64,000 nucleotides of DNA, from the NCBI GenBank assembly GCA_947623505.1, contig CANQGT010000007.1:1-64000 (forward strand). The letters run 5' to 3'. Within the stretch, counting starts at the first letter, position 1. Each line of letters begins with the position of its first letter. Below are positions 48,467 through 56,862 of the stretch, piece after piece. The position numbers and the translations under genes are program-made. Source of the DNA: an uncultured Clostridia bacterium (lineage in GTDB: Bacteria; Bacillota; Clostridia; Oscillospirales; Acutalibacteraceae). The notes below the pieces were generated by a model that worked only from the letters and a program-made list of their open reading frames with translations, had not been told where the DNA came from and searched no databases.

Positions 48467-48501
48467 AAAAATGCCAAGGTGAAAATCACCTTGGCATTTT
48501 T
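48467..48501. terminator. Terminator between the ECF operon and the tRNA-tail array
   Basis: A 16-bp stem AAAAATGCCAAGGTGA/TCACCTTGGCATTTTT with an AAA loop. It is symmetrical and would stop transcription from both sides. Confidence 0.88.
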
Positions 48502-49114
48502 GGTGCGGGGGATGGGCTTGCCGTCTGCTTCGGCTTTGCCTCGCATACTTTTGGCTCGGCGACCGCAGTTGCGCTGCGGTGCCCGCCTCACCGCTCTTCG
48601 CTAAAAACGGTTCACCGAACCGTTTTCTTTACGCTCAGACCCTCTCGGGTTCAAGTCCCATCATTATTAAATAAATCCGAGGCACAAAAATACCTCGGAT
48701 TTATTTGGTGCGGGGGATGGTCTTGCCGTCTGCTTCGGCTTTGCCTCGCATACTTTTGGCTCGGCGACCGCAGTCGCGCTGCGGTGCCCGCCTCACCGCT
48801 TTTCGCTAAAAACGGTTCACCGAACCGTTTTCTTTACGCTCAGACCCTCTCGGGTTCAAGTCCCATCATTATTAATAAATCCGAGACGCAAAAGCGCCTC
48901 GGATTTATTTGGTGCGGGGGATGGGCTTGCCGTCTGCTTCGGCTTTGCCTCGCATACTTTTGGTTCGGCGACCGCAGTCGCGCTGCGGTGCCCGCCTCAC
49001 CGCTCTTCGCTAAAAACGGTTCACCGAACCGTTTTCTTTACGCTCAGACCCTCTCGGGTTCAAGTCCCATCATTATTAAATAAATCCGAGGCAAAAAAAT
49101 GCCTCGGATTTATT
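48501..49114. repeat. Three tandem 204-205 bp units carrying the tRNA-Leu 3' end
   Basis: Units are 48501-48705, 48706-48909 and 48910-49114. Each starts on the plus strand with TGGTGCGGGGGATGGG, the exact reverse complement of the tRNA-Leu 3' end including CCA. Each continues through about 140 bp of nearly identical filler (with an ACGGTTC/GAACCGT hairpin and a CCGCAG/CTGCGG hairpin), then GGGTTCAAGTCCCATC, a T-arm-like sequence in the opposite orientation, and ends with an AAATAAATCCGAGG terminator hairpin. The intact tRNA begins where a fourth unit would start. Small frames here are repeat sequence. Confidence 0.92.
49079..49114 (-). terminator. Terminator of tRNA-Leu
   Basis: AAATAAATCCGAGGC/GCCTCGGATTTATTT hairpin immediately after the CCA end on the minus strand. 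Near-identical hairpins end array units 1 and 2. Confidence 0.85.
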
Positions 49115-49201
49115 TGGTGCGGGGGATGGGACTTGAACCCACATGAACTTGCATTCACTAGAACCTGAATCTAGCGCGTCTGCCAATTCCGCCACCTCCG
49201 C
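49115..49201 (-). tRNA. tRNA-Leu (anticodon CAG)
   Basis: An 87-nt tRNA with encoded CCA. Minus-strand features: acceptor GCGGAGG, D-arm GGCGGAATTGGCAGACGCGC, anticodon stem CTAGA/TCTAG with loop TTCAGGT (anticodon CAG), a long variable arm (TGAA/TTCA) and a T-arm GTGGG-TTCAAGT-CCCAT. The acceptor 3' strand is CCCCCGC, which leaves an A5:C68 mismatch; the other six pairs are canonical. A promoter lies upstream. Confidence 0.93.
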
Positions 49202-49434: not shown

Positions 49435-50001
49435 ATGAAAAAAATAATGCTAATTATTCTCAGCGTCTGCGCCGGAATTTATACCGTTTGGTATATGCAC
49501 TTCGGCAGCCTTACCCAAAACAGCGGCGCGCTTTCGTCAACGGGGCTCAAGCACCCCGTTTTGTTCGCCGTTTGGGGAATCCTTGTTTTTACGGCGCTTT
49601 ACTCAAACATTCTTTACGCCTATCGCGTATTTTCCAAGCCTCGCAGATTTCAGTATTACATCTGCGCCGTTTCCGCGCTCGGTATGGCGTTGACTCTGTT
49701 TTGCGATTTTGATTATTTAAAGCGCACGGAATATCTGCTTCACTGCGCCGGTTCCCTCACCTTCTCGGTTTTAACGGGAGTTTGCGTTTTTTTGATATTT
49801 CTGCTCAACTACAAAAACGGCCGCCTTTACGCCGTTTTCACTTACATAGTGGGAGCGATTCTTTTGTGCGACCTTGCTTTGCTTCTTATTTTTAAGCAAA
49901 CTGCGCTTATAGAGGCAGTGCCGGTGCTTTTCGCGCTGGTGATTATGCCGATTCACAATTTTACCGATTTATTCAAGGAAAAAGCCAATGCTTCACGATG
50001 A
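49435..50001 (+). CDS. Multi-pass membrane protein of unknown function
   Basis: The 188-residue protein has about six predicted membrane segments and short loops; no family is recognised. It overlaps the following decarboxylase-like gene by 14 bp, so the two are translationally coupled. Confidence 0.75.
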   Translation: MKKIMLIILSVCAGIYTVWYMHFGSLTQNSGALSSTGLKHPVLFAVWGILVFTALYSNILYAYRVFSKPRRFQYYICAVSALGMALTLFCDFDYLKRTEYLLHCAGSLTFSVLTGVCVFLIFLLNYKNGRLYAVFTYIVGAILLCDLALLLIFKQTALIEAVPVLFALVIMPIHNFTDLFKEKANASR

Positions 50002-51298
50002 TTTGAAAGAACTGAAAAGATACCCGTTTCATATGCCGGGGCACAAGAGAAATACGGCTCTCGGCATTGAGGGAAGCGAAATCGATATAACGGAAATATC
50101 AGGCTTTGACGATCTGCACAAGCCGACGGGGGCTATTCTTGACTTGGAGCGGGAGCTTGCGGAGCTTTACTGCTGTTCACGTTCGCATTTGCTTGTAAAC
50201 GGCTCAACGGTGGGCATTTTGGCGGCGGTTTTCGCCGTCGCCAAACGCGGAGACAAGGTGCTTATTTCGCGAAACTGCCACAAAAGCGTTTACAACGCAT
50301 GCCTCTTGCGTGAGCTCAAAACCGTATATATAGAACCTGAATTTGACGGCTTAAACGGATATTATACCAGAATAAATCAGAGCGCAATCGACAGAGCAGT
50401 TGCCGAAAACCCGGACGCTTCCGCCGTCATCGTAACTTCGCCTACATACGAGGGAAACGTAAGCTATATAACCGACGAAATCCCCGTAATCATTGACGCC
50501 GCTCACGGGGCGCATCTTCCGTTTTGCGGTTTTTGCCCATATCCCAAAGGAGATTTGGTTATCTCAAGCCTGCACAAAACGCTTCCGGCGCTTACTCAAA
50601 CAGCGGTGATAAATATATACAATGAGTATTACGCCGAAAAAGTCAAGGAATATCTTGATATATTTGAGACCTCGTCTCCGAGTTACGTCCTTATGAACTC
50701 CGTTTCAAAGTGCGTTCGGTATATTAAAAACGGCAAAAAAGATTTCGCAGAATACAAAAAAAATCTTGAAGAATTTTACAAAACGCCGCTGAAAAATCTT
50801 GAATTTACAATAAACGACGACATAGGAAAAATAGTTGTGTCCACCGCTCGGTGCGGCATTACAGGCGTTGAGCTTGCAAATATTTTAAGAGACGAATTTT
50901 TAACGGAATGTGAAATGGCAAGTCTCAATTACGTGCTGCTTATGACTTCGCCCGCCGACACTGAAATTGCGTTTAACAGGCTTTCATCGGCGCTTGAGAT
51001 AATTGACGGCAGATTGAGCAGAAAAACTCCGCGTTTGATAAAAAAGCCCGATATTCCCGAAAAAATCTGCGAATCGTTTGAGGTTGAAAACACCGCCGCC
51101 GTTCCTCTAAATAATGCAGAGGGAAAGATTTGCGGCGAATTTGTTTACGCCTATCCGCCCGGTGTTCCCATTATCGTTCCCGGTGAAATAATAACGGCCG
51201 ATATAATTAAAACGCTGACCAAAGCCGAAGCCGACGGAATAAATATTTTGAGCGCCGGTAATTTACTGCCCCGCTTTATATTGACAAAATCCGTATAA
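49988..51298 (+). CDS. Orn/Lys/Arg decarboxylase-fold PLP enzyme
   Basis: The 436-residue fold-type I PLP enzyme has the family start YPFHMPGHKRN, the ISGFDDLHKPTG segment, VTSPTYEGN, IDAAHGAHLPF and the PLP lysine in SSLHKTLPALTQ (near residue 200). The size matches the short SpeA/YaaO-like group of Firmicutes. The substrate (lysine, arginine or ornithine) cannot be told. The reaction releases CO2 and a di- or polyamine. Confidence 0.9.
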   Translation: MLHDDLKELKRYPFHMPGHKRNTALGIEGSEIDITEISGFDDLHKPTGAILDLERELAELYCCSRSHLLVNGSTVGILAAVFAVAKRGDKVLISRNCHKSVYNACLLRELKTVYIEPEFDGLNGYYTRINQSAIDRAVAENPDASAVIVTSPTYEGNVSYITDEIPVIIDAAHGAHLPFCGFCPYPKGDLVISSLHKTLPALTQTAVINIYNEYYAEKVKEYLDIFETSSPSYVLMNSVSKCVRYIKNGKKDFAEYKKNLEEFYKTPLKNLEFTINDDIGKIVVSTARCGITGVELANILRDEFLTECEMASLNYVLLMTSPADTEIAFNRLSSALEIIDGRLSRKTPRLIKKPDIPEKICESFEVENTAAVPLNNAEGKICGEFVYAYPPGVPIIVPGEIITADIIKTLTKAEADGINILSAGNLLPRFILTKSV

Positions 51299-51309: not shown

Positions 51310-51351
51310 AAGCACATAGCAAAAAGTAATTAAGAAAGAGGTGTTTTCAAT

Positions 51352-51498
51352 ATGAAAAAAATCAACACTTTAAATTCGCGCAACCTTTGCGAATCCGCTA
51401 AAAAAGGCGGCTGCGGCGAATGCCAGACCTCCTGCCAATCCGCCAGCAAAACTTCATGCTCTGTTGCAAATCAAAAGTGTGAGCAGCTTAAAAAATAA
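51352..51498 (+). CDS. SCIFF-type ranthipeptide precursor, variant
   Basis: The 48-residue peptide matches the six-cysteine-in-forty-five-residues family: an RNL segment, SAKKGGCGECQTSCQSA and a VANQKCE end. Six cysteines are present (13, 21, 24, 28, 36, 43). Relative to the usual family, position 32 is Ser (AGC) rather than Cys and position 37 is Ser (TCT) rather than Thr, and Cys13 is extra. The strong GAAAGAGGTG site supports the start. The radical-SAM maturase gene follows at 65 bp. The mature product and its role are not established. Confidence 0.95.
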   Translation: MKKINTLNSRNLCESAKKGGCGECQTSCQSASKTSCSVANQKCEQLKK

Positions 51499-51563: not shown

Positions 51564-52955
51564 ATGATACACGCCTACAAAATGAACGGCTATAATATCA
51601 TCATTGACCAAAACAGCGGCTGCGTTCACTCGGTTGACGAGGCGACGTTTGATATTATAAATCTGTATAAAGAAAAAAGCAAAGATGAGATAAAAGCCTA
51701 TATTATCGAAAAATACAAGGACGACCCCGAAGTTACGCCAGAAGATATAGATACCTGCTTCGGCGACATTGAAGCACTTATAGCGGACGGCAGACTTTTT
51801 GCCGAAGATACATTTGAGCAAACCGCGGCGCAGTTCAAAAAAAAGCAGGGCGTTTTAAAGGCCTTGTGCCTGCACGTTGCCCACGGATGCAATTTAGCCT
51901 GCAAATATTGCTTTGCGGGAAAGGGCGAATACTTTGGGCCAAAGGGGCTTATGAGCCTTGAAACAGGAAAGCGCGCCCTTGATTTTCTTATAGAAAACAG
52001 CGGCACAAGAAAAAACCTTGAAGTCGATTTCTTCGGGGGAGAGCCTCTGCTGAATTGGGAAGTTTGCAAAAAGCTTGTGGCCTACGGCAGAAGCCGTGAA
52101 AAAGAAAGCGGAAAAAATTTTCGTTTTACCCTCACCACAAACGGACTGCTTGTTGACGACGACGTAATAGAATTCTGCAACAAAGAAATGGGCAACGTTG
52201 TGCTCTCTCTTGACGGCAGAAAGGAAACGCACGACCGGCTGCGGTGCTTTCCCTCCGGCAAAGGCTCCTATGATTTGGTAACGGAAAAATTCAAGCGCTT
52301 TGCCGACGCGAGAAATCAGCGCGATTACTATATGCGCGGCACTTACACCCACTATAACACGGATTTCGCCGCAGACGTAATACATATGGCCGACCTCGGA
52401 TTTAAAGAATTATCCGTAGAACCCGTTGTATGCTCAGGCACGGAGCCGTATGCTCTGCGCCAAAGCGACCTTACGGCGCTTAAAGAGCAATACGAAATAC
52501 TTGCAAACGAAATGCTTAAAAGATACAGAAAAGGAAACGGTTTTACGTTTTACCACTATATGATAGACCTTGAGGCCGGACCATGCATAGTAAAAAGGAT
52601 TTCCGGCTGCGGCGTTGGAACGGAATATCTTGCCGTAACGCCGAACGGAGAGCTTTACCCCTGCCATCAGTTTGTGGGCGACGAAAAATTCCTCCTCGGA
52701 GATATATGGAACGGCATTAGGCGCGCGGATATTCTGAAACAGTTTAACGAATGCAATATATATTCGCACAAAGAGTGCAAAGACTGTTTCGCAAAGCTGT
52801 ATTGCAGCGGCGGATGCGCCGCAAACGCCTATCACTCGACAGGAAGCGTAAACGGCGTTTACGAATTTGGCTGCGAGTTGTACAAAAAGCGCATAGAATG
52901 CGCCATTATGCTGAAAGTGGCGCAGGCGGAAGAAAATCTGAAAGTGGAATATTAA
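51564..52955 (+). CDS. SCIFF maturase, radical SAM/SPASM (TIGR03974 family)
   Basis: The 463-residue enzyme has an N-terminal peptide-recognition (PqqD-like) region (about 1-90). The radical-SAM motif is CNLACKYC (Cys 109, 113, 116), with FFGGEPLLNW next. The C-terminal SPASM domain has the auxiliary cluster cysteines GCGVGTEYL, GELYPCHQF, CKDCFAKLYCSGGCAAN and a final Cys. The family forms thioether bridges in SCIFF peptides using S-adenosylmethionine. It is encoded right after the precursor. The N-terminal MIHAYKMNGYNIIID segment is typical. Confidence 0.96.
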   Translation: MIHAYKMNGYNIIIDQNSGCVHSVDEATFDIINLYKEKSKDEIKAYIIEKYKDDPEVTPEDIDTCFGDIEALIADGRLFAEDTFEQTAAQFKKKQGVLKALCLHVAHGCNLACKYCFAGKGEYFGPKGLMSLETGKRALDFLIENSGTRKNLEVDFFGGEPLLNWEVCKKLVAYGRSREKESGKNFRFTLTTNGLLVDDDVIEFCNKEMGNVVLSLDGRKETHDRLRCFPSGKGSYDLVTEKFKRFADARNQRDYYMRGTYTHYNTDFAADVIHMADLGFKELSVEPVVCSGTEPYALRQSDLTALKEQYEILANEMLKRYRKGNGFTFYHYMIDLEAGPCIVKRISGCGVGTEYLAVTPNGELYPCHQFVGDEKFLLGDIWNGIRRADILKQFNECNIYSHKECKDCFAKLYCSGGCAANAYHSTGSVNGVYEFGCELYKKRIECAIMLKVAQAEENLKVEY

Positions 52956-53126: not shown

Positions 53127-53715
53127 TAACCGCTTTGGCTCTCCTGTGTAAGGGGAGCCGGCTGCCGCAAGGCAGACTGAGGGGTTGGTTAGTTACAATA
53201 ACGCTGTTGTAACTAGAACATCACAACCCTTCCGTTTCGCTTACGCTCAACACCTTCCCTTACACAGGGAAGGCTTGTTTTTGTAGATACGCTCTTTAAC
53301 TCCTTTGGCTCTCCTGTGCAAGGGGAGCTGGCTGCCGCAAGGCAGACTGAGGGGTTAGTTAGTTACAATAACGCTGTTGTAACAAAACATCACAACCCTT
53401 CCGTTTCGCTCTCGCTCAACACCTTCCCTTACACAGGGAAGGCTTGCTTTTTGCAGATACGCTCACTCCTTTGGCTCTCCTGTGCAAGGGGAGCTGTCTG
53501 CCGTCAGGCGGACTGAGGGGTTGGTCAGTTACAATAACGTTATTATAACAGAACACTACAACCCTTCCGTTTCGCTTACGCTCAACACCTTCCCTTACAC
53601 AGGGAAGGCGGAAAGGAGGTGGGATTGTTCGCTTGCCATCGTCTTGCACAGGGGAGGCAATAAGGATTATCGTATGCTCAACACCTTCCCTTACACAGGG
53701 AAGGCAGAAAGGAGG
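53127..53715. repeat. Interspersed inverted-repeat block 4
   Basis: Three A-B pairs plus extra B-type hairpins. In one pair the apical loop is GTTACAATAACGCTGTTGTAAC; in another it is GTTACAATAACGTTATTATAAC, which retains self-pairing through an AATAACGTTATT palindrome. The final copies (53640-53715) are B hairpins alone. The block lies between the dockerin gene stop (53722) and its terminator (53062). Confidence 0.92.
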
Positions 53716-53721
53716 GCGATT

Positions 53722-56700
53722 TTATTTTTGTTTGATTTCATCAAAGTTGTCGATTATCTCTGCGATTTTTTGCATTATGAACAACACATCTAACGGGTCT
53801 ACTTTTCCGTCGCCGCTTACATCGGCACGCGCAAACGCATCGCCCTCAAGCTTAGCGTCGTCGAATTCTGCAATATATCTCTTGACAATAAGCACGTCTA
53901 ACGGGTCTATATTTCCATCGCCGTTTACGTCGCCAAGAGTTACGGTTTTATCCGAGCCTAAAGATACAAATTCATATCCGTTTTCCTCGGCATAAGTTTG
54001 GGCATACGAATTTTCATAACCGTAAATCGTTTTAAGGGCTGTTCCGTAAAACGCGTCTTTGCCTATACTTGTTACACTGCTCGGTATCGTTACGCTTGTT
54101 AAGCTGCCCGCATCGGAAAACGCGTAATCGTCTATGCCCGTTACGGTATAACCGCCAAGCTTTTTGGGAATTTCAAGTTGCGAAGCGCTTCCGCCGTAAC
54201 GCGTAATTACGCAGGTTTTATTCTGCTCAGAAAGTATTTTGTATTCAAAATTTCCCGAAATCAAGACCTCGCTGCCAATATCATACGGATTTACCGAGCA
54301 GATAACGGGCGCGGAATTATCCGTATAGTACCAACGCACAAATCCGTCGCCGCATAAAATCGGCTTGCAATCCGACAGTCTCAAAGAAGAAGTGAAAATA
54401 TCGGAAGTAAAATTACCCTGATCGTCAATCGTGGCAATTTTTGTAATCGTCTTGCCGCTGTTTCCGTTATATTCTTCCCACGCAATCAGGAACTGATCGC
54501 TGCCGAGCTTTACAAGCTGCGGGGTACGAACGGTTATCTCGGAGCCCTCATCATAATTTGTAAGCCAAACGACTTTTGAAGAAACGGGAAGCGATTTATC
54601 GGTAATGCTTACAAATATGTTTCTCTTTCCGTAGCAGTCGGCGTTGGATTTTGTGTAATCAACGGCATTTCCCGCGATTATACAATTAGATGATGACAAT
54701 TCAAAGCCGCCGATTGACGCGCCTGTCGGATTATAGCCTGTAACATTGCTTAAATCTACAGGTAATGCGTAGTTTATATCGGTTATTTTTCCGTTTACCG
54801 CGCAAGATGTTATGCTTATCGCCCGCGGATAAGCGTCGCCGTGATCCACTCTGTAAACGTTTTTACCATCCGTCTGAATAAATTGGTTGAAAGAATGGCT
54901 TACGTAGCCCGCCTGTGCCAAATTCATAACATCGTAATACTCATCGACTATTTCCATTGTGCTTTCATTTACGACGAAGGTCATATTCGCCTGATGATTT
55001 ACACCATCTTCATCGGCAAACATTTCATGGCAGGTGTAAATATAGAGCTTACCGTCCGTTTCGGTCATTCTCAAAGAACCCGCGTCAAAAGGAATATGGG
55101 TATTCGCCCCTTTGACTGATGCCGAACCGAGCTTGCCCCAATCCTTATCGTACTTAACTATCCTCACAACCTCTTTTTCTTCACTATCGGAGGTATTGCT
55201 TTCGCCGAATACGAGGAAATTATAGTTTTCCCCGCTGTAAAATCCGCCGAAAATCGACAGTTCGGGGCTTATCTTTTTCGTGCTCAAGAGATTTCCGTCG
55301 GAAGAATACGTTTCAACGAGCACTTGATCGTTCACAAATTCAACGCGCGTAAGCGTTGAGTCGGCGTTTTCTGCCAAATAAGAATTTACAACGCTGCTCC
55401 AAACGGTGTAGTTATTATCCGAAACGTTATTTGATACCGCTCCTTTGGCGGTTACCGAATTTTCGGGCGGGTTCTTAGAGGGAAGTCCGGAGCTAACCGT
55501 CACATTATAGGTGCCTTTAAGCCCTGTTTCCGTTGTCACGATTATTGTTGCCGTACCCTCGCTCCAGCCGAATACCTCGCCATGAGCATTGACGGACGCC
55601 ACTTTCGGATTACTGCTTCTCCAAGAGTATATTTCGGAAAGAGAGCCGTCGGTGCTTGCCGTAAGCTGAACCGATTCTCCGACTTTAACGGTGTTCGGGC
55701 CTGTTACATTCAAAGACGAGGCACGATTCCAATTAAATATTTCAAGATAAAAATCCTTTCCGCTTTTTTCAATAGCAACTATTTTGTCGTTATATTTTAA
55801 GAGAGAGAAAACAGGATAGGCTGTCTTTACGCTTCCAAAGCAATCGCCGGTATCCGGATCAAATTCAGATATAGTTTCATCGTCAACATATGATACTATC
55901 GTATTTGTGCCGTCAAGATAAACCGTTCGTGAACCGACAGAGCCTTCGTTATCGAAGTTTTTGGTGTCTACCGGACGCTCAATAAATACGTTTTCGATAT
56001 CAGCGAAGCTTTCCGCCGTTGAATCTATTTTATTTGAATTCAGAACAAACATACCCGAATTAAAGGAAGTGTCCACGCAGAGATAACGGCCGGCAAGAAT
56101 GTCCATTGGCGACTGCCTGTCAAAATAATCATACTGGCTGATATAAGTTATGGGAGTATTATTAAACGATATTTTGTCGCCGCTCACGTTGCCTATATAA
56201 AGGGTGTGCATCGGATGCGGATAGCCCCAGTATACCCAATTATAATATCCGTCAATATAGAAATTTCCGTTTGTGCTGTCAAACGCGCCGAAATCGTTGA
56301 CCGAATCGGTTAATGAAACCTCGGAAAGAAGAGACATTGAGGAGGAAAACAGGTAAATCTTATTTTCACCCGATTGGGAATCATATCCGGAAAGATAGAT
56401 CCTTCCGCTTGAGTCGGCGCCTATAGCTTCGGCAAGCTGTGAAACGCGAAAAACATTTTCCACGCGCTGCTCGGCAAGATTGTAAACGGTAACAATGTAG
56501 GGATTGCTTCCCGTAAAATACTCTTCTTGCAAAATATATAGCTTATCGGCAGTAGCGTAGCTGTCAAGAAGATCAGCCCGATCGTTTGTGAAATCATAAA
56601 CAAGCTCGGACTTATTATCGCCGAGCGAATAGAACGTAAGTTCCTCTCCGTTAAGAAAATAAATCCCTCCGAGCGAAGCGCACGGGACCTGAACGCATTC

Positions 56701-56862
56701 TGTTCTATAATTTTCATAGGAAATAACATCCGTGCCGAGCTTTACGACTTCGCCTGACTGAGCGGCATAAGCCTTTTCGTTAAACAAGGCCGGCGGACCA
56801 AAAAACACCCCAAGCAAAAGCGCTAACGAAAGCACGGCGCAGATAATTCTTTTTTGTTTCAT
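53722..56862 (-). CDS. Secreted dockerin/BIG2/LRR multidomain protein
   Basis: The 1046-residue protein begins with a signal peptide (about 1-33). An N-terminal region (about 40-380) contains repeated Y/F-rich beta blades and may be a propeller; a similar stretch follows at about 480-890. A BIG2 Ig-like domain is at about 385-457 (VKVGESVQLTA...VASVNAHGEVFGWSEGTATI). One or two BspA-type leucine-rich repeats lie at about 905-965 (DDYAFSDAGSLTSVTIPSSV). A complete type I dockerin is at about 976-1046 with two calcium loops (GDVNGDGNIDPLD and ADVSGDGKVDPLD). It is a likely client of a surface cohesin. No catalytic motif was recognised. The sequence around the start has no unusual features. Confidence 0.92.
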   Translation of the reverse strand: MKQKRIICAVLSLALLLGVFFGPPALFNEKAYAAQSGEVVKLGTDVISYENYRTECVQVPCASLGGIYFLNGEELTFYSLGDNKSELVYDFTNDRADLLDSYATADKLYILQEEYFTGSNPYIVTVYNLAEQRVENVFRVSQLAEAIGADSSGRIYLSGYDSQSGENKIYLFSSSMSLLSEVSLTDSVNDFGAFDSTNGNFYIDGYYNWVYWGYPHPMHTLYIGNVSGDKISFNNTPITYISQYDYFDRQSPMDILAGRYLCVDTSFNSGMFVLNSNKIDSTAESFADIENVFIERPVDTKNFDNEGSVGSRTVYLDGTNTIVSYVDDETISEFDPDTGDCFGSVKTAYPVFSLLKYNDKIVAIEKSGKDFYLEIFNWNRASSLNVTGPNTVKVGESVQLTASTDGSLSEIYSWRSSNPKVASVNAHGEVFGWSEGTATIIVTTETGLKGTYNVTVSSGLPSKNPPENSVTAKGAVSNNVSDNNYTVWSSVVNSYLAENADSTLTRVEFVNDQVLVETYSSDGNLLSTKKISPELSIFGGFYSGENYNFLVFGESNTSDSEEKEVVRIVKYDKDWGKLGSASVKGANTHIPFDAGSLRMTETDGKLYIYTCHEMFADEDGVNHQANMTFVVNESTMEIVDEYYDVMNLAQAGYVSHSFNQFIQTDGKNVYRVDHGDAYPRAISITSCAVNGKITDINYALPVDLSNVTGYNPTGASIGGFELSSSNCIIAGNAVDYTKSNADCYGKRNIFVSITDKSLPVSSKVVWLTNYDEGSEITVRTPQLVKLGSDQFLIAWEEYNGNSGKTITKIATIDDQGNFTSDIFTSSLRLSDCKPILCGDGFVRWYYTDNSAPVICSVNPYDIGSEVLISGNFEYKILSEQNKTCVITRYGGSASQLEIPKKLGGYTVTGIDDYAFSDAGSLTSVTIPSSVTSIGKDAFYGTALKTIYGYENSYAQTYAEENGYEFVSLGSDKTVTLGDVNGDGNIDPLDVLIVKRYIAEFDDAKLEGDAFARADVSGDGKVDPLDVLFIMQKIAEIIDNFDEIKQK

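Follow-up and report, generated by a model that had tools for sequence, protein, structure and literature searches.

Serine in Place of the Published Thioether Donor in a Clade of SCIFF Precursor Peptides

Introduction

What does a SCIFF maturase make when the cysteine reported as thioether donor is missing from its precursor? The question is raised by a locus in the window, by which we mean the whole 64,000-nucleotide stretch of DNA analysed here, taken from an uncultured member of the Clostridia. According to the accessible text of two reviews, a Cys32-Thr37 thioether was found in vitro for Tte1186a, the first such link to be obtained in this way, and for CteA; for CteA co-expressed in E. 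coli, two reviews give Cys32-Thr34 in the text available. The available part of PMC6231123 assigns the first 18 residues of CteA to the leader, and in the CteB crystal the peptide's Cys21 is found at the open Aux I site (review and PMC6231123, both in part). Whether further SCIFF cysteines participate is left open in the accessible portion of a review. Other ranthipeptides with non-alpha thioethers, freyrasin (PapA/PapB) and NxxcA, have precursors that differ from SCIFF and are linked, in the reviews as available, at Cys-X3-Asp sites or between Cys23 and Asn20. In the part of the literature covered by our search, no report of natural SCIFFs with Ser32 was found, and an earlier one may lie outside that coverage.

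Results

A SCIFF precursor with serine at positions 32 and 37

The precursor gene (Table 1) encodes MKKINTLNSRNLCESAKKGGCGECQTSCQSASKTSCSVANQKCEQLKK, as read by translation. The product scores 75 bits against TIGR03973 (cut-off 50) and 76.8 bits against the Pfam SCIFF family PF13165 (cut-off 27); the SCIFF family model had no match in any of 14 control genomes. Sequence and translation agree with the initial annotation of the window in placing AGC at codon 32, TCT at codon 37 and cysteines at positions 13, 21, 24, 28, 36 and 43. SCIFF peptides are characterized by six cysteines in about 45 residues. Six are present in 48 here, one of them in the leader, which leaves five in the core. The donor Cys32 is replaced by Ser32; this is the site reported in two members, and it lies outside the cut-off of the family models. 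Thr34 is present and Thr37 absent, and which of the two serves as acceptor is disputed between the reports, so far as their accessible parts go. A profile search of the genome (1.82 Mb, 24 contigs) found one SCIFF.

The maturase gene begins 65 bases downstream on the same strand. Its score of 727.1 bits against TIGR03974, together with those of the precursor, upholds the earlier description of a SCIFF peptide beside an intact maturase. The look-alike exception model NF040492 gives 545.8 bits, under its cut-off of 855, and the PapB model 274.6 bits, under its cut-off of 340. The closest solved structure is that of CteB (5wgg/5why; phmmer 9.4e-167). The radical SAM motif CX3CX2C corresponds to Cys109, Cys113 and Cys116, and the SPASM-type cysteines are Cys341, 349, 367, 405, 408, 414, 418 and 437. 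The available part of PMC6231123 gives the SPASM motif as CX9-15GX4C-CX2CX5CX3C-C; in our own fit, Cys349, 367, 405, 408, 414, 418 and 437 would match this motif, with Cys341 preceding it.

Both the precursor and the maturase families are shared with CteA/CteB, the thermocellin system of Clostridium thermocellum. The initial annotation had placed this pair in Caldanaerobacter, whose own pair is Tte1186a/Tte1186 in the sources as available. CteA has Cys32, Thr34 and Thr37 in the published material accessible, whereas the window peptide has serine at 32 and 37; 5wgg includes a stretch of 21 CteA residues, which aligns weakly (E 0.4) to residues 1-21 of the window peptide. Tte1186a/Tte1186 of Caldanaerobacter subterraneus likewise combine a SCIFF with a radical SAM maturase, but the window peptide is without their Cys32 donor and Thr37 acceptor.

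Table 1. Features of the SCIFF locus and its surroundings (positions in the window)
Feature	Position	Strand	Basis or remark
188-aa protein without Pfam match, before the decarboxylase gene	49435-50001		kept in 27/71 Ser32/Ser37 loci
Orn/Lys/Arg decarboxylase-like gene, upstream neighbour	49988..51298	+	PF01276, 134.8 bits
Likely Shine-Dalgarno AAAGAGGTG, ATG 8 bases further on	51335..51343	+	sequence
SCIFF precursor peptide gene, 48 aa, Ser32/Thr34/Ser37 type	51352..51498	+	translation, TIGR03973, PF13165
Putative leader, residues 1-18	51352..51405	+	CteA boundary of PMC6231123 (available part), applied by analogy
Codon 13, TGC, leader Cys13	51388..51390	+	sequence
Cys24-Gln25-Thr26, candidate alternative Cys-X-Thr site	51421..51429	+	Thr26 fixed in Thr37-less clade, variable elsewhere; putative role
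Codon 32, AGC, Ser replacing published donor Cys32	51445..51447	+	sequence, survey
Codon 34, ACT, Thr34, CteA acceptor reported in E. coli	51451..51453	+	sequence; Thr34 in 486/494 peptides
Codon 37, TCT, Ser replacing published in-vitro acceptor Thr37	51460..51462	+	sequence, survey
SCIFF maturase, radical SAM/SPASM, 463 aa	51564..52955	+	TIGR03974, 727.1 bits (cut-off 425)
Maturase Val351, two residues past SPASM-type Cys349	52614..52616	+	Val in 71/71 distinct Ser32/Ser37-Ala37 maturases
Maturase Phe409, adjoining SPASM-type Cys408	52788..52790	+	Phe in 71/71 distinct Ser32/Ser37-Ala37 maturases
1046-aa protein, dockerin + Big_2 + BspA-type LRR domains, downstream of maturase	53725-56862	-	

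Serine 32 among relatives

Relatives were drawn from the genus (80 genomes, 71 with a SCIFF match; 30 loci read, the window's included), the family (300 genomes, 220 with a match) and the class (391 genomes drawn, 322 with a match), and were supplemented by 80 maturase relatives from titled records (named loci L061-L140). Peptides were obtained from 489 of the 490 fetched loci, L119 being the one without, and number 495; L235, which ends after Thr34, is omitted from all counts based on 494. At family level, reading covered the 30 best matches, 66 that scored low and a further 89; at class level, it covered the 30 best plus 165 lower-scoring matches chosen by eye. The unread remainder was mostly high-scoring. 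The sample is weighted towards the window's own family and, since only part of the matches was read, the counts should not be taken as class-wide frequencies. Named loci may repeat coded genomes, and genus counts rest on coded genomes alone. A model-based search may overlook peptides that have lost several cysteines; we can think of nothing that would make a missing Cys32 easier to detect than a missing Cys21.

Ser32 occurs in 93 of the 495 peptides, 91 of them of a main type with Ser37 or Ala37. The main type is present in ten coded genera, nine in the window's family and one in another (g76 has both types). An alignment of close relatives at positions 13, 32 and 37, as the initial annotation had suggested, gives Cys13 and Ser32 in 30 of 30 genus loci, with Ser37 in 29 and Ala37 in one. 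What had been described as the trait of a single peptide is the property of a clade, comprising 91 peptides in ten coded genera and two families.

At residues 32-34-37 (n = 494), Cys-Thr-Thr is the commonest combination (218), followed by Cys-Thr-Gly (175) and Ser-Thr-Ser (88); rarer types are Cys-Val-Thr (6), Ser-Thr-Ala (3), Ser-Val-Thr (2), Val-Thr-Ala (1) and Cys-Thr-Ala (1). Cys21, Cys24, Cys28, Cys43, Gln29, Ala31 and Lys33 do not vary in any of the 494 peptides, and Cys36 is retained in 490, Thr34 in 486, Cys32 in 400 and Thr37 in 226. Among the six cysteines, Cys32, the published donor, is conserved least; it is the dispensable one and stands outside the invariant SCIFF core. The statement that most family members keep both Cys32 and Thr37 is, on account of Thr37, not supported by this sample with its bias towards the window's family. 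The statement that both known crosslink residues are changed holds for Cys32 and Thr37 and falls short at Thr34, the second reported acceptor. This residue is kept by all 91 main-type peptides, as are Cys21, 24, 28, 36, 43 and Thr26.

All 400 Cys32 peptides have Thr34, Thr37 or both: Val34 is accompanied by Thr37 in six of six, and Gly37 by Thr34 in 175 of 175. The survey contained no Cys32/Ser37 or Ser32/Gly37 peptide, and Ser32/Thr37 only in two degenerate peptides of genus g67. We do not claim a strict coupling of residues 32 and 37; should Ser32 have a single origin, both residues may have changed in one event, for which no statistics are possible.

The extra cysteine at position 13 was considered as a substitute donor and rejected. 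Cys13 falls within the leader, and Cys32 relatives often have it too; in coded genomes it is found in 72 of 135 Cys32/Gly37 and 8 of 218 Cys32/Thr37 peptides, as against 30 of 44 Ser32/Ser37 and 2 of 2 Ser32/Ala37 peptides. For the same reasons the notion that one cysteine had been moved does not hold; the core has five.

Some unusual peptides deserve mention in their own right. The Val34 SCIFFs that keep Cys32 and Thr37 (L205, L207 and L225 in g54; L218, L228 and L230 in g86) provide a naturally occurring test of the acceptor in dispute. Four degenerate SCIFFs are without Cys36, namely L233 and L234 (g67), L236 (g99) and L232 (g33). Three of the four are also without Cys32; L233 and L234 have Ser32 with Thr37 retained, and L236, which has Val26, Thr34 and Ala37, lacks both Thr26 and Thr37. 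Beside L233, L234 and L236 are full maturases in which none of the eleven cluster-type cysteines is missing. Six ORFs (L130, L131, L133, L369, L395 and L420), all Cys32/Gly37, are tandem SCIFFs with two leader-plus-core units each.

Selection on peptide and maturase

Within the genus (30 loci), pN/pS is 0.023 for the core and 0.064 for the leader; over the 91 Ser32 loci the values are 0.049 and 0.24, all of them uncorrected and with synonymous sites close to saturation. The median maturase omega of the genus, from 88 usable pairs, is 0.067; the other genera for which a value was obtained span 0.014 to 0.202, many of them with one to three pairs. The peptide core and the maturase are under strong purifying selection; therefore, Ser32 is neither error nor decay. 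A decaying peptide, or an assembly error at codon 32, is scarcely credible to us: the three peptides of other genera that look degenerate, having lost both Cys32 and Cys36, show that such decay has a likeness elsewhere, but the 30 genus loci agree throughout, with the low core pN/pS just given. Sequencing error is rejected on the same agreement.

Ser32 is written AGC in 74 of the 91 loci, TCA in 8, AGT in 7 and TCT in 2. Both AGY and TCN codon families are used, also inside the genus, and retention of the residue across them would be in keeping with a role for Ser32 itself, linked as an ether by the maturase. Against this, we know of no ranthipeptide maturase that makes such a serine ether. 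The model proposed in the accessible parts of a review and of PMC6231123 moreover employs a cysteine at Aux I, and we regard the ether as very improbable.

Descent of the locus

In a FastTree phylogeny of 244 maturases, thinned by genus and type, the Cys32/Gly37 (106), Ser32/Ser37 (39) and Ser32/Ala37 (3) rows form one clade with support 99. The same joint clade (99/96) appears in a mixture-model tree of 85 rows rooted on Thr37 rows. This smaller tree holds 30 of 42 Ser32-type rows (12 near relatives were removed by hand), 32 random plus six chosen Cys32/Gly37 rows, and 17 chosen Cys32/Thr37 rows (one with Val34), with L233, L234 and L236 excluded. When free, it has the Ser32 rows as a grade and the Cys32/Gly37 rows as a clade (96/89); with the 30 Ser32 maturases constrained to one clade, the likelihood was 15.2 log units above that of the free tree, and the AU test does not reject the constraint (p 0.699). 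Both trees set the Cys32/Gly37 rows within or next to a grade of Ser32 rows. This could be read as loss of Cys32 followed by its regain; we do not claim this, because the tree with Ser32 as one clade scored better. A single origin of Ser32 is open and, on these trees, probable.

In the maturase trees, the Ser32 clade stands nearest to the Cys32/Gly37 SCIFFs of Faecalibacterium and its relatives, in which Thr37 is absent and Thr26 fixed (175 of 175). Unlike the Ser32 clade, they keep Cys32. Counting loci with room upstream, the decarboxylase gene precedes 58 of 71 Ser32/Ser37, 2 of 2 Ser32/Ala37, 23 of 73 Cys32/Gly37 and 0 of 87 Cys32/Thr37 loci, a distribution that fits common descent of the SCIFF locus; we do not claim that the decarboxylase takes part in maturation. 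In the search for an extra enzyme, clusters of flanking ORFs were blurred by shadow ORFs on the opposite strand; the decarboxylase and the 188-aa protein were checked directly. The SCIFF locus of the window is flanked by direct repeats (48499-49129 and 53129-53609), in which a 222-nt unit and a 145-nt unit each occur three times.

A shift of constraint at residue 26

Thr26 is present in every non-degenerate peptide without Thr37 (175 of 175 Cys32/Gly37, 88 of 88 Ser32/Ser37, 3 of 3 Ser32/Ala37 and the single Cys32/Ala37), the sole exception being the degenerate L236 with Val26; among Cys32/Thr37 peptides no more than 108 of 218 have it. Over a tree length of 31.0 without Thr37, residue 26 does not change at all, versus 13 changes over a length of 45.2 with Thr37 kept (p 0.0013, or about 0.015 after correction, since twelve positions were tried). 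The groups were set by residue 37, so that counts at residue 37 itself carry no weight. L233, L234 and L236 were excluded at first; a recount with these degenerate rows on the Thr37 side, and without 14 long or long-joined rows, gave 0 versus 10 changes (p 0.0027). Residues 22, 25, 26 and 27 together change 0 times without Thr37 and 25 times with it. Residue 38 behaves in the opposite way (7 changes without Thr37, 1 with). Residue 39 resembles residue 26 (2 without Thr37, 12 elsewhere), which is at odds with a simple shift to residues 22-27. It is the Thr37-less clade as a whole that shows the shift at residue 26, and most of this clade bears Cys32; its Ser32 part is short (length 8.8), and taken alone its lack of change would be non-significant.

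Maturase positions typical of the Ser32 clade

Full maturases accompany 89 of the 94 peptides without Cys32, and the other five frames reach the end of the fetched piece. In Ser32-type maturases ten of the eleven cluster-type cysteines are conserved at 1.0 and Cys437 at 0.988 (genus-weighted). Among the 405 maturases remaining after removal of identical sequences, the seven positions most typical of Ser32 were 351, 440, 409, 402, 119, 343 and 95. Except for position 95, each is no more than three residues away from a cluster cysteine (p 1e-5, uncorrected and post hoc, the near-cluster set of 51 of 452 positions having been defined once the list was known). Seven other contrasts, two of which are one comparison in both directions, placed 0 to 3 of their top seven near cluster cysteines; the contrast of Cys32/Gly37 with the rest is also enriched there, with three of its top seven positions and five of its top ten (p 0.0025 for the ten). 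At the positions of Val351 and Phe409, CteB has Ser and Trp by alignment.

Because peptide Cys21 is held at Aux I in CteB, the Ser32-typical changes sit where altered substrate handling might be expected, which is support and not proof. The value of Val351 and Phe409 as marks specific to Ser32 is weakened by nine Cys32/Gly37 maturases (genera g30, g106 and named loci) that also carry Val351, Phe409 and His440; with all three residues shared, none is strictly tied to Ser32. The nine are L099, L106, L129, L140, L439, L443, L449, L464 and L490, with peptides of Anaeromassilibacillus and relatives.

Discussion

Since Cys32 and Thr37 are both missing beside an intact maturase, the ring must be elsewhere or absent, as the initial annotation had proposed. 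We favor the view, at a probability of about 0.6, that this is a working ranthipeptide locus that has dismantled its Cys32 thioether and whose maturase makes a thioether from a remaining donor and a threonine. Judged from sequence, the dismantling would consist of the replacement of Cys32 by Ser on the donor side and of Thr37, one of two reported acceptors, by Ser or Ala; at this level of the crosslink residues the Ser32 clade is a counter-example. Our confidence is high that the locus is functional and without a Cys32 ring, and low for any particular new ring. Since the relatives keep both Ser32 and the maturase, the enzyme probably forms another ring or leaves the usual place without one.

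By analogy with CteB, the leader would be held by the RRE of the maturase, a remaining core cysteine would be bound at the open Aux I site, and the SAM cluster would generate a radical on a threonine. The thioether would then close away from position 32, with Cys21, 24, 28, 36 or 43 as donor and Thr26 or Thr34 as acceptor. The likeliest sites would be Cys24-X-Thr26, which has the spacing of Cys32-X-Thr34, or Thr34 with another donor.

The latter variant, in which Thr34 is still the acceptor and Cys36 or Cys28 the new donor, is possible while short of probable. Thr34 and Cys36 are retained in 91 of 91 main-type peptides, and a donor on the C-terminal side of its acceptor has a precedent in NxxcA, where Cys23 is the donor to Asn20 (review, in the part available). 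Thr34, however, is equally conserved in Cys32 peptides, which makes its conservation uninformative, and the altered constraint is found at residues 22-27 and not at 34-36.

The other variant takes its cue from the shift at Thr26 and from the equal spacing of Cys24-Gln25-Thr26 and Cys32-Lys33-Thr34. The maturase would perhaps act in the Cys21-Cys28 segment, and the ring might have been re-sited there, with a Cys24-X-Thr26 link, throughout the Thr37-less clade, the Ser32 branch being its extreme. We put this forward as a doubtful proposal.

A rather unlikely alternative dispenses with the thioether: the crosslink would be lost, the five core cysteines would bind metal, form disulfides or serve otherwise, and the maturase would be kept for, e.g., a different oxidation. 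The invariance of Cys21, 24, 28 and 43 in all 494 peptides, set against a variable published donor, suggests that the peptide may fulfil its essential function without the thioether. Yet the cluster cysteines of the maturase are retained, and its omega in the genus falls inside the range of the other genera.

If the Cys21-Cys28 segment does hold the ring, this would be a naturally re-sited ranthipeptide, in which the target of the maturase has changed within one peptide scaffold. SCIFF is widespread in the class (322 of the 391 genomes drawn), and its mature form is unsettled, the acceptors of CteA differing between reports. The Ser32 clade is a ready-made natural experiment, in that the product of its maturase would show which residues matter.
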